Below, in pieces: positions 45,981 through 52,431 of a DNA stretch of 55,853 nucleotides. Position 1 is the stretch's first letter, and each line of letters begins with the position of its first letter. The notes under the pieces were generated by a model. That model was not told the origin of the DNA and did no database searches. It saw only the letters and a list, made by a program, of their open reading frames with translations. The position numbers and the translations under genes were made by a program. Origin of the DNA: a virus; IMG/VR virus record IMGVR_UViG_3300027969_000126, positions 1 through 55,853 of that record; one strand, written 5' to 3'.

Positions 45981-46616
45981 ATGTGGTTTGTTTATATTTT
46001 GTATGATACTAGAAACGGTAACCCATTTTATGTGGGCAAGGGCAATAAAAGACGATTGAAAGCGACATTGAATGTAAATGCCGGGGCTAATGCCTTGAAA
46101 AAGAAATTTTTGAAAGAAATAAGAGCAGTTGGACTTGAACCTGAATTAAAAATAGTAGGAGAGCATCCTACTGAAACTGATGCGTTGAATCAAGAAAAAC
46201 AATTAATTGAACAATATGGAAGAATTATAAAAGGCAATGGATTATTAACAAACTACGCTGACGGGGGAGAAAATGGTAGCACGGGACATATATTTTCTGA
46301 AGATACAAAAAAACTTTGGTCTTCTCAAAGAATCGGAGTTAAACAAACTAAAGAACATATTGAGAGTAGAGTAGATCAACTTAGAGGAAAAATTAGGTCA
46401 ACCGAATCCAAAAGAAAATATGTTTTGGCTAGTATTCGTAGAACTAATCCGGAACTAAAAGTTGAGATTATAAGAGAACTAGAACAAAAAGAATATACCC
46501 GAGGAATGTATACAGAATTATCTAAAAAATTGAATTGCCATCATGAACTGATAAGTAGAATACACAATGAAATTGAACTATACAAGGAAGCATTAAATGA
46601 GTGGATCAAAAAGTAA
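45981..46616 (+). CDS. GIY-YIG family (Seg-like) homing endonuclease
   Basis: 211 residues. The N-terminus 'WFVYILYDTRNGNPFYVGKG' is the GIY-YIG motif in its VYIL...YVG form. Tyr5, Tyr18, the basic pair Arg25-Arg26 and the Glu in 'EKQLIEQYG' fit the catalytic set. Residues about 98-125 ('GHIFSEDTKKLWSSQRIGVK') look like a NUMOD3 DNA-binding unit, and the C-terminal 60 residues are charged helices that may form another DNA-contact domain. Such free-standing endonucleases are mobile genes in T4-like phages. It is inserted between gp46 and a PD-(D/E)XK nuclease gene, whose first 20 bases it overlaps. Expression appears controlled by the upstream hairpin. No intron is evident around it. Confidence 0.82.
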   Translation: MWFVYILYDTRNGNPFYVGKGNKRRLKATLNVNAGANALKKKFLKEIRAVGLEPELKIVGEHPTETDALNQEKQLIEQYGRIIKGNGLLTNYADGGENGSTGHIFSEDTKKLWSSQRIGVKQTKEHIESRVDQLRGKIRSTESKRKYVLASIRRTNPELKVEIIRELEQKEYTRGMYTELSKKLNCHHELISRIHNEIELYKEALNEWIKK

Positions 46617-47151: not shown

Positions 47152-47650
47152 AACGTTTAAAAATTAGTTGGCTCAGTTGTGAGTCCTCCTTGAGTTTGTA
47201 CAGATAGTGCTGTGCTGACGGATCTGGAGTATGCTTATCAGTAATGATAAGGAAAACCGAGAAGGCAATCGTCAAAGCGAACCTTCAATGAGTCTATATC
47301 TAACTCTATCTTGCAGATATAGAACATGCGTTGTCGAAGAATCAATTGAAAGACATTGGTAGCTTCACTACAGTCCCAAAAACACTACAGGACAACCGGT
47401 TGCGTATAATATCAGAAATAGGTAATTATACGGGGAATAGATGGCAAAGGATGACGGGCATGGCAAGTTTCCATTGGTAGTGCAAATTTGCACTACCATG
47501 GCTTCAAAGCGGCAATATATCCCTAATCAAATAAAAGTTTTTAAGACTACAGAATTGTAGAAAAATAAGACCGAACGAAGTGAGGGCTTAGATGAACGAA
47601 GTTCATCTCTTAATGAACAATCCAATATTAGATAAATGAATAATTACGGA
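47152..47650 (+). ncRNA. Candidate structured non-coding RNA region, unassigned
   Basis: The only gene-free stretch above 300 bases, between two convergent genes. Helices seen: CTTATCA/TGATAAG (47234-47251) closed by a GTAA tetraloop; GAAGG/CCTTC (47261-47286); CTATATCT/AGATATAG (47294-47322); GTTGTC/GACAAC (47330-47396) enclosing GTAG/CTAC (47359-47371); CGTATAAT/ATTATACG (47403-47432); a 22-base perfect palindrome (47476-47497) extended by CCAT/ATGG; CTACA/TGTAG (47547-47560); AGATGAAC/GTTCATCT with GAA loop (47590-47608). The GNRA-type loop argues for the plus strand. I tried tRNA, tmRNA, RNase P and group I/II core motifs without a match. It might belong to the large ornate phage RNAs (GOLLD/ROOL type) or be new. 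Confidence 0.45.
47476..47497. repeat. Perfect 22-bp palindrome
   Basis: GGTAGTGCAAA is followed at once by its exact reverse complement. With CCAT (47471-47474) and ATGG (47498-47501) the inverted repeat reaches 15 pairs with one bulged T. No T-run follows, so it is not a standard intrinsic terminator. It could be a helix of the RNA candidate or a dimeric protein site. Confidence 0.8.
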
Positions 47651-47827
47651 TTAGAAGAATGGCAGTTGTGATTTCTTAGTTGTTTCTAAGTTATCTTCTA
47701 TTATCTTACTAATCATAATTCTTTCATCATCGGACATGTTAAGAACATCCTCATAGGATACCCCTCCCCTCATATACCAAGAAAACTTCAAAGCAGTATT
47801 CTTAATTTCTTTTATATCTTTTTCCAT
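47651..47827 (-). CDS. Small tail-assembly ORF, probably expressed as -1 frameshift extension of the gp26-type protein
   Basis: Alone it is 58 residues from ATG at 47827: a helix 'MEKDIKEIKNTALKFSWYMR', then 'GGVSYEDVLNMSDDERIMI' and a helix ending 'TTKKSQLPFF'. I recall such 'SWYMRGG' proteins after gp26-type genes in T4-like cyanophages. The frame is open upstream without a stop through the end of the gp26-type gene, reaching the slippery site T TTT TTC. A -1 shift would add 18 residues (RIRLLSLPPEGVQKLLDQ) plus these 58 to the upstream protein. The ATG has no good ribosome site. Known parallel: the second tail assembly chaperone in lambda (gpGT) and P2 is made by frameshift. gp51 is the T4 counterpart by position. 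Confidence 0.7.
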   Translation of the reverse strand: MEKDIKEIKNTALKFSWYMRGGVSYEDVLNMSDDERIMISKIIEDNLETTKKSQLPFF

Positions 47828-47838
47828 TTGGTCTAATA

Positions 47839-47887
47839 GCTTCTGAACCCCTTCAGGGGGTAGGGATAGAAGCCTTATCCGAAAAAA
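47839..47887 (-). promoter_or_regulatory. Programmed -1 ribosomal frameshift signal
   Basis: On the minus strand: heptamer T TTT TTC at 47887-47881 in the correct zero frame (GAT TTT TTC GGA TAA), 6-base spacer GGATAA, then a stem GCTTCT (47873-47868) with AGAAGC (47844-47839), and an inner stem CCCC/GGGG (47856-47860 with 47848-47851). The zero frame stops inside the spacer. The -1 frame stays open for 76 codons. Confidence 0.8.
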
Positions 47888-48702
47888 TCTGATATATTAA
47901 GTGCTAATTCTTGATTGTATTCATGTGAACAATTAACACATTTAATTTGTTGTGGCTTTATTGTTGAATTTGTTCTAATTGTAGATACATGTGTCCTGAT
48001 AGCTTCATATGTATTTCTATCACATTTTTCTATAAATTCTGTTATATGCTCTCTATTTGTTACTACAGTTGACTCTACACTAATTGATTCAACCGTATTG
48101 CAAATTAACTCAGAATTTATTTTTTGTATAGCTTTCATAAGTTCGCTGGATCTTTTATTTCTAGATTCTTCATCTGCATCATCCATAGCTTGCATTTCTC
48201 TAATCTGACGTTGCATTAACAATTGGCCCATGTTGCCGTTATTTACTTCTTTATATGAAAGAGGTTTAAATTTTACTTGTAATTCACCAACATGTAATAT
48301 ATTATTATAATCGTCAGATTTTATCGTAGTTAGTAAATACGATAAATTTACTTTATACTCACCTTCGTTTTCGCATGAAGGGCAAGTTGAAAAAATACCC
48401 AAATCATTGCCATTGGTTGCTGAACGTATGGCAATTAATATAGCATCTAAATCCATGCTAGGAATTGCCCAAGGGTCTTTTATGGCCGGAACACAACTTT
48501 TAATAATATCAACAACTGCACTTCCGTTAAATAATGCATCTGGCGTTTTACCAGTAATTTCATCTATAGCCGTCATCGGGTAAACGGGAAGTTCTCCAGT
48601 TTCGGGCATATCTATTGCTCCTTCAGGATAAAATTGACCTCTGCTAGGTAAGGTTAAATGCAATGCTGCTCTGCGAAAATACTGTCTTAGGGGGTTGTTC
48701 AT
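47875..48702 (-). CDS. 26: gp26-type baseplate hub / tail assembly chaperone protein
   Basis: 275 residues, GGAG ribosome site, perfect TATAAATA late promoter upstream. The 'LTLPSRGQFYPEGAIDMPET' start, the 'LPVYPMTAIDEITGKTPDAL' block and 'AIPSMDLDAILIAIRSATNG' are typical of the T4 gp26 (T4_baseplate) family; T4 gp26 has 208 residues. Two zinc-type pairs are visible, CPSC (after 'LGIFST') and CVNC near the C-terminus, probably binding one metal. It ends ...NISDFFG with a slippery heptamer over the FF codons, so a 350-residue frameshift product is predicted. Transcribed divergently from the tape measure, it probably chaperones tape measure and tail assembly rather than, or besides, acting in the hub. 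Confidence 0.82.
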   Translation of the reverse strand: MNNPLRQYFRRAALHLTLPSRGQFYPEGAIDMPETGELPVYPMTAIDEITGKTPDALFNGSAVVDIIKSCVPAIKDPWAIPSMDLDAILIAIRSATNGNDLGIFSTCPSCENEGEYKVNLSYLLTTIKSDDYNNILHVGELQVKFKPLSYKEVNNGNMGQLLMQRQIREMQAMDDADEESRNKRSSELMKAIQKINSELICNTVESISVESTVVTNREHITEFIEKCDRNTYEAIRTHVSTIRTNSTIKPQQIKCVNCSHEYNQELALNISDFFG

Positions 48703-48783: not shown

Positions 48784-51700
48784 ATGGCTGGTGAAATCAA
48801 TATTGACGTAGAAAAACTGGAAAAAATGCTTGAAGCATTGGGTGTCAATGCGGGCACAGCCGCGGAAGCATTGGGTAGATTTGGTGATGAGACAGACCTT
48901 GCCACTGAACATGAACAAGATTCACTTAAAATTAGCCGAACGGTTCAACAAGAATTTGATAAGTTGGGGTTAATAGTAAAGAAAACTGTTGGTGTTAAAG
49001 ACGCTGAATATATAACCCTTAAAAAGTCTGAGGAGTTAGCAAAAAAACGTCAAAAATCAGATGAAGAAACTATTAAAATATTAGAAGCAACTCAAGCAGG
49101 CTTCAAATCATTGACCAAAGCGCAACAAGAGGAAGAATTAGCTAGAATGCGCTCCGCTGCTATGTTAGACCAACAACTAGCAAGCATGAATAAGGTTATA
49201 AATGAAAACGGTAAACTTGTAGATTTATCTGTTAAAATGAATCAAGCTGACCAGCTAAAATTAAATATGGCTCAGCGGCAAGAAGCAGCAATGAAAAAAC
49301 ACGAAGAAGCAATACTTGGTTCAGCTAATTCATTACTGGATCTGCCAAAAAAGTTGGGAGGTATGGCATTAAAATTTGCATTTGACAAAATAATTGGTGG
49401 TATCGATGCTACTTATAAGGGCATGATTGCATATGAAGATGCAATGCTTGCAGGCGCAAATGATGAAGTTTCTATGGGTATTTTACGCCGCGAACAGATG
49501 CAGGCTGAAGCAGATGCACATGGCAATTTAGGCGAATCCATGAAAGGTTTAGGTATAGATATGGCTATGCTGGGTGGCGCTGCTGTTGCCGGCTCAGCAG
49601 CTATTTCAATGGCAGGAGGTGCGGCTAGATTATTTTCGATAGTTATGACTGCTGCCTCTGGCCCAATTGGGCTTTTAATTGGTGCAATAACTGCGGCTGC
49701 AGGTATTTTTCTTTGGTTTAAAGGTCGTGAACAAGAACAAATAAAAAAATCAATAGAACTTCAAAAGAAACGTGATGAAGACCTAGGTAAACAAAATAAG
49801 GCTTTGTATGAAGGTTATGAAAAATTAGCTGATGTTTCATTAGTGGGTTCACGTGGCTTACAAGGAGTGTTTGATGACTTGCAAAAAGTAGGTGTTACTG
49901 TAAGTCAATTCGAAAAACTAAACAAAGTATTACAAGAAAATCGTAAAGACATGAAGTTGTTTGGTGCCGGAGCAGTAGACGGAGCCAAACAATTTGCGGA
50001 AAATGCAGGAAAATTAATAAACTCAGAATTGGGCGGTCAGTTGCGAGCAATGGGCATTAATCAAGAAGATCAAATGGCTCATATGGCTCAATTTATGTCT
50101 CAGCAATCTAAAACAGGTATGAAAGCTAGCGGAGACCAAGCAAAAGCAGCAGCAAATTATGTACTAGAACTTGACAAAATGGCAGTGTTAACCGGAGCAT
50201 CAAGAAAAGAACAGGAAGATGCTAGAAAAGCTATATTGTCAATGAATCAATTACGTGCCGCAATGCTTGAAGCTGAAGAGGCAAATGATACTGATAAACT
50301 TGCAGAATTGACTCGTGCGTATGAAACAGCTAGCGCATTAATGGCTGCAGGATTAAAAGCTGAAGGTGGCGCTCTTGCAAAATTATCAGCAGCAGGAGGT
50401 GGTCCAGTTGACGCTGAAACTGCTAGAATATATCAAGCTATGAGTGGTGCCGGCGGCACTCTTGAAATGATAAAGTCTGGTAAAGGAAGTAATGTAGATA
50501 GAACTCAAGCTGCTGTTTCAGGCTTAATGACACAAAATAAACAATATTTAGGTACTACTAAACTTACTGGTGGTATAGCAGGTCAAACGATGGGTGAAGG
50601 TGAATTAGGTACTCTCATTGACCTTAGTAAATCACAAGATAAAATAAAAGAAGCCGCATCAAAAGGTTCAATGACACCTGAAGAATATGCTGCGTCACAA
50701 CGTAAGCCGGCGGCGGACGCCGAAGCAGCTACAAAGGCCCGTATAGCGCAGCAAGAAACAATGTTAAAAACAGACAAAGGGCTTAGAGAAGGTACATTAA
50801 AGTATCCAGGTGCAGACGATCAAGCTAACATTATTTCAAAATTTGGTGAAAGTGTATCTAGTTTTATAAAAGGGGTTGATAAGTGGGTAGGTAATGTTGC
50901 AGATAGTATGTTTGGCGAAGGTTGGTGGGCAAAATATGGGCCCGGCGGAGAACAAGATCAAGAAAATTGGAGAATCACCAAAGAATTGTTTAACAACATG
51001 TGGGATAGTGCTGGGAAAGAATTTGCACCATGGTGGGACAAATATGGCATTGGTGGTGAACAAGATCAGAAAAATTGGGAAATAACTAAAAAAGCCTTTG
51101 ACGATATGTGGACCAATACTAAGAGTATGACTTCTGAAATTAGTGCAACGTTCGATAAAATTGGAAAAGATTTTGGTAAATCACTTCAAGATGTTGTAAA
51201 TGGTATGATTACAGCAATTAAGAATTTAATAAACATGATTCCTAACGCAGGTGCTGCTATAGACAAAGCCAAAGAAGTAGGCGGTAAAGCAGTAGATACA
51301 GTTAAAGGTGCAGCATCATCAGTTGCGGGTGCAGCATCAAGTGCTTGGGGAGGAGTTACTAGTGCGTTTGGCGGAGGAGGCGGCGGCGGTGGTGCCAAAG
51401 CAGCAGCACCTAGCGGTGGCGGCGGGAGTAGCGGTGGCGGTGGAGGCGGCGGCGGCGGTGGTCGAGGAGGACAAGGAGGCGCACCCGCACCAGTAGTACA
51501 AGGTGGTAGTGGTCGGGGTGTTTATGGCGGCGCAATGGAAGCAGGTAATGCTGGTCGAGGAGTTCAAGGAGTAGCAGCCGCTAATGCTGAATTAGAAAAA
51601 TATGCAAACATGAGCGGTGGTGCATTAGCTGCAAATATAACTAAGTTTGAAAGTGGTGCAGCAGGGTATAATGCTTATAACAGAGGAACTGTCGGTAATA

Positions 51701-52431
51701 AAATGATAGGTTCAGATAAACCTATAGATTTTAGTAAAATGACAATTGCTGAATATCTTGAGCATGGTCGTCTAAAATCAGGTGATCCAGACAAAATTTT
51801 TGCTATGGGCAAATATCAAATTATTCCTGATACTATGGCCGGCCTAGTAAAGAAATTAAAATTAGATCCTGAAAAAACATTTTTAGATAGTGCTACTCAA
51901 GATTTATTATTTAATGAAGGTATAATTAAACAAACTAGACGAAATGTTGCTGCTTATCTGTCCGGTCAAAGTAATGATAGAGATGCTGCTATATTAGATA
52001 TGGCTAAGGAATTTGCTAGTGTTGGTGTACCTTATCCGGCTGGTAAAGCACAGGAGCGTGGGCAATCATACTATGCTGGTGTTGGTGGTAACAAAGCACA
52101 CAATCCACCTGAAGCAGTAGGTGCAGCATTAGATGCAGATAGAACAACTAAAATTTCAGCAGCAATGGGTGGTATAACTCAGGGACCAATGTCAGGCTAT
52201 CCAGCTACATTACATGGTAATGAAATAATAACCCCATTGTCACCCAATAGTATATTGGAACAACTAGCAAAAACTTCAGCGGCGCCGGCAGCTTCAACAA
52301 ATCAATCTAATGATAGCGATATATTAATGAGTCTACATGATTTAATGGAAAATAAATTCAATGATATGATTAATACATTGAAAGATGGAAATAATTTAAC
52401 TGATAAATTAATAAAGTATTCTCTGGCTTAA
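48784..52431 (+). CDS. Tail tape measure protein with embedded lysozyme-like domain
   Basis: 1215 residues. Charged coiled-coil helices at about 1-190 and 315-560. A hydrophobic region at 262-313 (MLGGAAVAGSAAISMAGG ... GLLIGAITAAAGIFLWFKG) is typical of tape measures that insert into the host membrane. A 36-residue duplication starts at Trp714 and Trp750 (WWAKYG/WWDKYG...EQDQ). A Gly-rich linker lies at 863-902. Residues about 945-1085 form a lysozyme/transglycosylase-like domain: 'ITKFESGAAGYNAYNRG' with candidate catalytic Glu956, then 'AMGKYQIIPDTMAGLV' around Gly1009. The C-terminus 'GPMSGYPATLHGNEIITPL' is a common tape measure ending. It sets tail length and probably cuts peptidoglycan during entry. 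The T4 equivalent is gp29 by function and position. Confidence 0.88.
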   Translation: MAGEINIDVEKLEKMLEALGVNAGTAAEALGRFGDETDLATEHEQDSLKISRTVQQEFDKLGLIVKKTVGVKDAEYITLKKSEELAKKRQKSDEETIKILEATQAGFKSLTKAQQEEELARMRSAAMLDQQLASMNKVINENGKLVDLSVKMNQADQLKLNMAQRQEAAMKKHEEAILGSANSLLDLPKKLGGMALKFAFDKIIGGIDATYKGMIAYEDAMLAGANDEVSMGILRREQMQAEADAHGNLGESMKGLGIDMAMLGGAAVAGSAAISMAGGAARLFSIVMTAASGPIGLLIGAITAAAGIFLWFKGREQEQIKKSIELQKKRDEDLGKQNKALYEGYEKLADVSLVGSRGLQGVFDDLQKVGVTVSQFEKLNKVLQENRKDMKLFGAGAVDGAKQFAENAGKLINSELGGQLRAMGINQEDQMAHMAQFMSQQSKTGMKASGDQAKAAANYVLELDKMAVLTGASRKEQEDARKAILSMNQLRAAMLEAEEANDTDKLAELTRAYETASALMAAGLKAEGGALAKLSAAGGGPVDAETARIYQAMSGAGGTLEMIKSGKGSNVDRTQAAVSGLMTQNKQYLGTTKLTGGIAGQTMGEGELGTLIDLSKSQDKIKEAASKGSMTPEEYAASQRKPAADAEAATKARIAQQETMLKTDKGLREGTLKYPGADDQANIISKFGESVSSFIKGVDKWVGNVADSMFGEGWWAKYGPGGEQDQENWRITKELFNNMWDSAGKEFAPWWDKYGIGGEQDQKNWEITKKAFDDMWTNTKSMTSEISATFDKIGKDFGKSLQDVVNGMITAIKNLINMIPNAGAAIDKAKEVGGKAVDTVKGAASSVAGAASSAWGGVTSAFGGGGGGGGAKAAAPSGGGGSSGGGGGGGGGGRGGQGGAPAPVVQGGSGRGVYGGAMEAGNAGRGVQGVAAANAELEKYANMSGGALAANITKFESGAAGYNAYNRGTVGNKMIGSDKPIDFSKMTIAEYLEHGRLKSGDPDKIFAMGKYQIIPDTMAGLVKKLKLDPEKTFLDSATQDLLFNEGIIKQTRRNVAAYLSGQSNDRDAAILDMAKEFASVGVPYPAGKAQERGQSYYAGVGGNKAHNPPEAVGAALDADRTTKISAAMGGITQGPMSGYPATLHGNEIITPLSPNSILEQLAKTSAAPAASTNQSNDSDILMSLHDLMENKFNDMINTLKDGNNLTDKLIKYSLA
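50923..51111 (+). repeat. 36-codon tandem duplication inside the tape measure
   Basis: Two adjacent units start WWAKYGPGGEQDQENW and WWDKYGIGGEQDQKNW (Trp714 and Trp750) and both end near a MW pair. The DNA copies have diverged but keep frame. Such duplications change predicted tail length. Confidence 0.7.

Follow-up and report, generated by a model that had tools for sequence, protein, structure and literature searches.

Making a short and a long form of a tail assembly chaperone by ribosomal frameshifting is a known trick of tailed phages. In lambda, the short gpG and the long gpGT, made in a fixed proportion, bind the tape measure protein and bring in tail tube subunits (PMC5009743), and the same major review describes the chaperone frameshift as conserved among long-tailed phages "except T4". 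The viral DNA analysed here, a stretch of 55,853 nucleotides (hereafter the window, to which all coordinates refer), carries a gp26-type gene followed by a small reading frame, and raises the question of whether the two are separate genes, as in T4, or one gene expressed through a programmed -1 frameshift.

The gp26-type gene occupies 47875..48702 on the minus strand and encodes a short product of 275 residues, equivalent to a TAC-N, which matches PF12322 (T4_baseplate, E = 5e-20) and the baseplate hub family phrog_150 (E = 3e-19). Its 3′ end reads GAT TTT TTC GGA TAA, in which the slippery heptamer T TTT TTC lies in the gp26 frame at 47887..47881 and is followed by the six-nucleotide spacer GGATAA (47880..47875), itself containing the 0-frame stop TAA (47877..47875). 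The -1 frame stays open between 47896 and a stop at 47653..47651, and the extension that it encodes, a putative T-type domain of 76 codons plus stop (47651..47881, minus strand), would be joined to 274 residues read in the gp26 frame, giving 350 residues against 275 without the shift. The initial annotation had proposed this heptamer in this phase, the six-base spacer and these two product lengths, all of which are borne out by direct reading of the frames. Among the 24 window ORFs of at least 150 residues, 96 in-frame sites fit the pattern X XXY YYZ; T TTT TTC occurs just once, and the heptamer at the gp26 end is the sole one of the 96 within 30 nt of a stop codon.

Relatives were collected by protein similarity and not by the heptamer. 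The search with the gp26 protein returned 16 IMG/VR loci and 89 phage records, with one match each, and the search with the extension returned more than 570 stretches encoding relatives, from which 80 loci were kept. The main set consists of 21 junctions from the gp26 searches, these 80 from the extension search and five named phages, some contigs being present in both searches. When these relatives are aligned for heptamer, spacer and stem, as the initial annotation had suggested, T TTT TTC in the gp26 frame, followed by an open -1 frame of about 60-80 codons, is found in all 106, including Phosso, Atu_ph07, PA5oct, 121Q, GAP32, RaK2, Munch and BF, whose gp26 proteins are 28-35% identical to that of the window. 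Elsewhere in these gp26 genes phenylalanine is encoded 481 times by TTT and 169 times by TTC, and the fixed TTT TTC after a codon ending in T is thus not a matter of codon usage. The reverse search, using the DNA signature TTTTTTCGNNTRAGGCTTYT only, yielded at least 120 IMG/VR contigs. Of these, 80 were fetched: five are unrelated, and 75 have the extension in their -1 frame. A recognisable gp26 lies upstream in 73 of the 75, the other two having only 13-19 readable upstream codons.

A frameshift of this kind would be expected to be helped by a stem some 5-9 nt downstream, and the initial annotation had pointed to a stem-loop. In the window, a hairpin of 13 pairs starts right after the spacer, with a predicted energy of -15.4 kcal/mol; its seven outer pairs join GGCTTCT (47868..47874) to AGAAGCT (47838..47844), its six inner pairs join ATCCCT (47862..47867) to AGGGGT (47847..47852), all on the minus strand, and a two-base bulge interrupts it. 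The outer stem stands as first described, and the inner CCCC/GGGG pairing does not, the best inner stem, and the conserved one, being AUCCCU/AGGGGU (47867..47862 / 47852..47847). This hairpin is mildly better than those of shuffled sequences (z -1.62; 16 of 200 shuffles as good), which is not decisive alone, and the weight comes from conservation across relatives. Over 62 non-redundant junctions, the folding energy of 45-nt windows shows a sharp peak at +6 after the heptamer (mean -12.5 kcal/mol, z -2.27), windows upstream of the heptamer having z near 0. A strong stem whose 5′ arm begins 5-7 nt past the heptamer is present in 87% of these 62 junctions, compared with 3-15% if the position tested is moved and 12% if synonymous codons are permuted with the protein kept the same.

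The consensus structure was not found by RNAalifold in the full mixed junction alignment, because the 3′ arm sits elsewhere in part of the loci, and the stem was assessed instead by counting pairs of the named structure and by the stem-position test with its controls. Across 51 ungapped sequences, 81.6% of the cells of the named 13-bp stem are paired, compared with 37-53% when it is slid, and 60 cells are compensatory double changes, compared with 28 in shuffles. The outer helix alone is 89.6% paired, with 13 compensatory cells against 2.7, exemplified by the replacement of GCTTCT/AGAAGC by GCTTTT/AAAAGC or by ACTTCT/AGAAGT.

In some of the loci, the same 5′ arm is exactly complementary to a 3′ arm that comes later, at about +67 or beyond, as in GGCTCTTTGT/ACAAAGAGCC of Atu_ph07 and GGCTTCTTT/AAAGAAGCC of loci L077 and L088. 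In ten loci (L001, L002, L014, L019, L020, L070, L077, L088, L091 and L097) the 3′ arm ends at about +67 to +88 and not at +42, the 5′ arm still being placed about 6 nt past the heptamer (3 nt in L019), and their stimulatory element may be a long-range stem. Conservation of position is thus stricter for the 5′ arm than for its 3′ partner, which moves.

The run of six T at the slip site invites another explanation, namely that the frames are joined by slippage of the RNA polymerase and not of the ribosome. Such a run is, however, short by the general standards of transcriptional slippage; its phase relative to the codons is fixed, and is the same in the junctions of phiM9 (TTTTTTG) and phiM19 (TTTTTTT), and a stem at a fixed 6-nt spacer suits ribosomal pausing. 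We regard transcriptional slippage as extremely unlikely.

Is the small reading frame then translated as a continuation of gp26, or from a start of its own? The ORF caller reports a 58-residue ORF (47651..47827, minus strand) whose ATG is codon 19 of the extension; we do not think it a separate gene. Codons 4-18 of the -1 frame, which precede this usual ATG, have a pN/pS of 0.41, while reading this DNA in its other two frames gives 0.86 and 1.82; the value after the ATG is 0.26. Judged from these substitution patterns, the -1 frame is under purifying selection ahead of any usable ATG. The ribosome site of its own that the small ORF would need was rejected as a candidate: as the initial annotation had noted, no Shine-Dalgarno match precedes the ATG in the window, and the start codon is not conserved.

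Two separate proteins, gp26 and a small one with initiation or re-initiation of its own, could be argued for from the ATG or TTG that occurs within the first three -1 codons in nine of the 62 junctions, in some overlapping the stop, from public records that give the small ORF as a gene in its own right, in many cases under the name gp51, and from Vibrio phage K445, in which the heptamer is absent and TAATG is found. Nevertheless, the ATG of the small ORF, although common, is replaced in several lineages by ATA, TTA, GTA or CTA; a Shine-Dalgarno is missing in most cases, with only six of the 62 junctions having any ATG preceded by a Shine-Dalgarno-like match within the first 40 codons; and separate initiation accounts neither for a -1 frame conserved from the heptamer on nor for the invariant heptamer and stem. 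It is therefore a very unlikely reading, and we retain ribosomal frameshifting.

What the two products would be can be approached through their families. The gp26-type product scores 72.5 bits against PF12322, whose curated cut-off is 24.5, and both T4 gp26 and T4 gp51 match this same family, the match in gp51 covering residues 1-201 and being followed by a C-terminal addition of about 48 residues. Two genes of T4 belong to PF12322; whole-genome searches of five complete jumbo phages gave one clear match each, and seven long contigs also have one clear match each, one of them with a second, sub-threshold match. When the profile of the extension was compared with that of gp51, as the initial annotation had proposed, homology emerged, and it falls at the C-terminus of both (hhalign, 4.5e-5, probability 69%, 34 residues), a result of moderate strength from a single comparison. 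The idea of a T4-type chaperone pair thus stands as regards the chaperone reading, through PF12322, the homology of the extension and the pattern of one gene versus two; it does not stand as regards the identity of the 58-residue ORF, which is no gp51 gene, matching only the C-terminal 50 or so residues of gp51.

No match of weight to the extension was found in Pfam, PHROG or PDB, and none by fold; it is predicted to form helices at residues 11-40, 45-49 and 53-73 (mean pLDDT 83). The model of gp26 is a mixed fold predicted with confidence (pLDDT 92), and the proteins that it matches are phage proteins, either gp26-like or unnamed. Neither by sequence nor by fold did it give a significant match to a solved structure in the PDB, and it accordingly lacks a fold link to the lambda- or HK97-type chaperones. 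By analogy, the product would work like a lambda-type chaperone, yet homology to that family was not found.

A further possibility is that gp26 is a structural subunit of the baseplate hub, the long form being a variant hub protein and not a chaperone. PHROGs and GenBank annotate gp26 as baseplate hub, and genetic evidence placing gp26 in the hub is cited in a review of the T4 tail (PMC3004832); the same review, though, lists gp26 and gp51 as hub assembly chaperones, and a short and long pair suits tail assembly chaperones. We consider the structural role unlikely, and prefer the reading of gp26 as a chaperone.

From the slippery site, the stem, the selection on the -1 frame and the contrast of one gene with the two of T4, all of them features of the compared sequences, a programmed -1 ribosomal frameshift at the end of the gp26-type chaperone gene, making a short and a long tail assembly chaperone, appears very probable. 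Most ribosomes would terminate after codon 275 and release the short chaperone. A minority of them, made to pause by the stem-loop that lies 6 nt downstream, would shift from T TTT TTC to TTT TTT C and translate a further 76 codons, giving the long form of 350 residues with an alpha-helical C-terminal domain, the presumed counterpart of the C-terminal extension of T4 gp51. We infer that both products are made and that, by analogy with lambda gpG/gpGT, they would act as chaperones in a fixed ratio, covering the tape measure protein and attracting subunits of the tail tube or hub.

Next to gp26, a divergent gene on the plus strand (48784..52431) encodes 1215 residues, in which residues near 283-314 are hydrophobic and a C-terminal stretch near 950-1130 is lysozyme-like. 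Homologues occur in 53 of the relatives' loci, and relatives carry them at the same place. The corresponding neighbour in RaK2 is annotated as similar to a tape measure protein, and blastp of the window's protein against the neighbours in jumbo phages found no match. That this divergent gene encodes the tape measure protein is plausible.

The anatomy of this locus is also met further away in the T4 superfamily. T TTT TTC stands at the gp26 end in the cyanophages Syn1 and P-SSM4, and in Ah1, AS-yj, Vibrio phage K571, Stenotrophomonas phage BUCT608, Xanthomonas phage X1 and OLIVR5; phiM9 and phiM19 have the variants given above in unchanged phase. In cyanophages, rhizobial and vibrio phages, depositors independently gave the small ORF behind gp26 the name gp51 or "baseplate hub assembly catalyst"; these loci share the anatomy of the window and, in most, its heptamer, and differ in that the extension is smaller and annotated as a second gene. 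In T4, on the other hand, gp26 ends in TTC TTT GAG TTA CTA TAA, where the two phenylalanines are kept, the slippery site is absent and gene 25 follows directly; gp51 records are present in several genera of Straboviridae. T4 gp26/gp51 and the locus described here are alike in belonging to PF12322 and in comprising two forms, the longer of which carries the same C-terminal extension, and unlike in that T4 has two genes, on opposite strands and devoid of a slippery site, where one gene and a frameshift are found here. The comparison of the slippery one-gene loci with the T4 pair suggests that a single gene with a frameshift, the state in most of the superfamily, is the equivalent of the two genes of T4 and its nearer relatives.

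The spread of lineages favours frameshifting as the ancestral state. It seems somewhat more probable than the contrary, on comparative grounds, that the T TTT TTC frameshift of gp26 is ancestral across the T4 superfamily, including cyano-, rhizobial, vibrio and jumbo phages, with a 5′ arm fixed at about 6 nt and a 3′ partner ranging from about +42 to about +67 or beyond, and that the gp26/gp51 pair of T4 is a derived duplication in which the extension became fused and the frameshift was dropped. The gp26 frameshift appears to be near-universal among the distant relatives of T4, which itself uses two separate genes, and the locus and its relatives indicate that even within its own kindred T4 is the exception. 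They also indicate that small genes annotated as "hypothetical" or "gp51" beside gp26, in their hundreds, are the second half of one frameshifted gene, and their annotation would be corrected, jumbo phages included. Moreover, these phages would let frameshifting and gene duplication be compared in nature as two ways of setting the same protein ratio.

Vladimirov, Gautam and Davidson (2022; Virology 566:9-15) are said to have identified the tail chaperone genes of T4-like phages. The initial annotation knew of no established case for gp26/gp51 in such phages; a precedent does exist, since a passage of a later paper credits Vladimirov et al. (2022) with poly-T slippery sites in T4-like chaperone genes (PMC12846349). 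The authors of PRFect, in the passage that treats the same work, state that some T4-like phages do not frameshift but have two copies, one short and the other longer and fused (PMC10885494). A covarying stem at a fixed spacer, the reach into jumbo phages and the equivalence of the extension with the gp51 C-terminus are not stated in the literature searched, and may be in Vladimirov et al. (2022).

Other frameshifted chaperones differ in detail. Lambda gpG/gpGT, like the scheme proposed here, has a -1 slip shortly before the chaperone gene ends and a minor long form with a C-terminal domain, and its gene lies near that of the tape measure, as the gp26-type gene probably does; it differs in its heptamer, in having no detectable homology of protein sequence or fold, and in its arrangement, the gp26-type gene and the probable tape measure gene being divergently oriented. 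The Vandenendeviridae/Andersonviridae, represented by phage Adele, likewise have a -1 frameshift on a poly-T motif at the end of the short chaperone gene, but they are other families with an invariant GTTTTT, where here T TTT TTC occurs at a gene of the gp26 family (PMC12846349).

Three additional observations concern single loci. In Vibrio phage K445 (L126), near 1860-1890, both reading frames are kept but the heptamer is lost (TCA CTT TTC AAG), and in the TAATG the stop of gp26 overlaps a start codon of the -1 frame ORF, an instance of frameshifting naturally replaced by coupling. A 211-residue ORF of the window (45981-46616, plus strand), which starts with MWFVYILYDTRNGNPFYVGKG and lies between the gp46-type gene and the gp26 region, looks by eye like a GIY-YIG homing endonuclease. 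Finally, the stretch at 47628-47655 (TAATCCGTAATTATTCATT, minus strand), at and just past the stop of the extension, is identical in two related loci (L007 and L008) whose gp26 proteins show only 66% identity, and constitutes an unexplained conserved non-coding piece.
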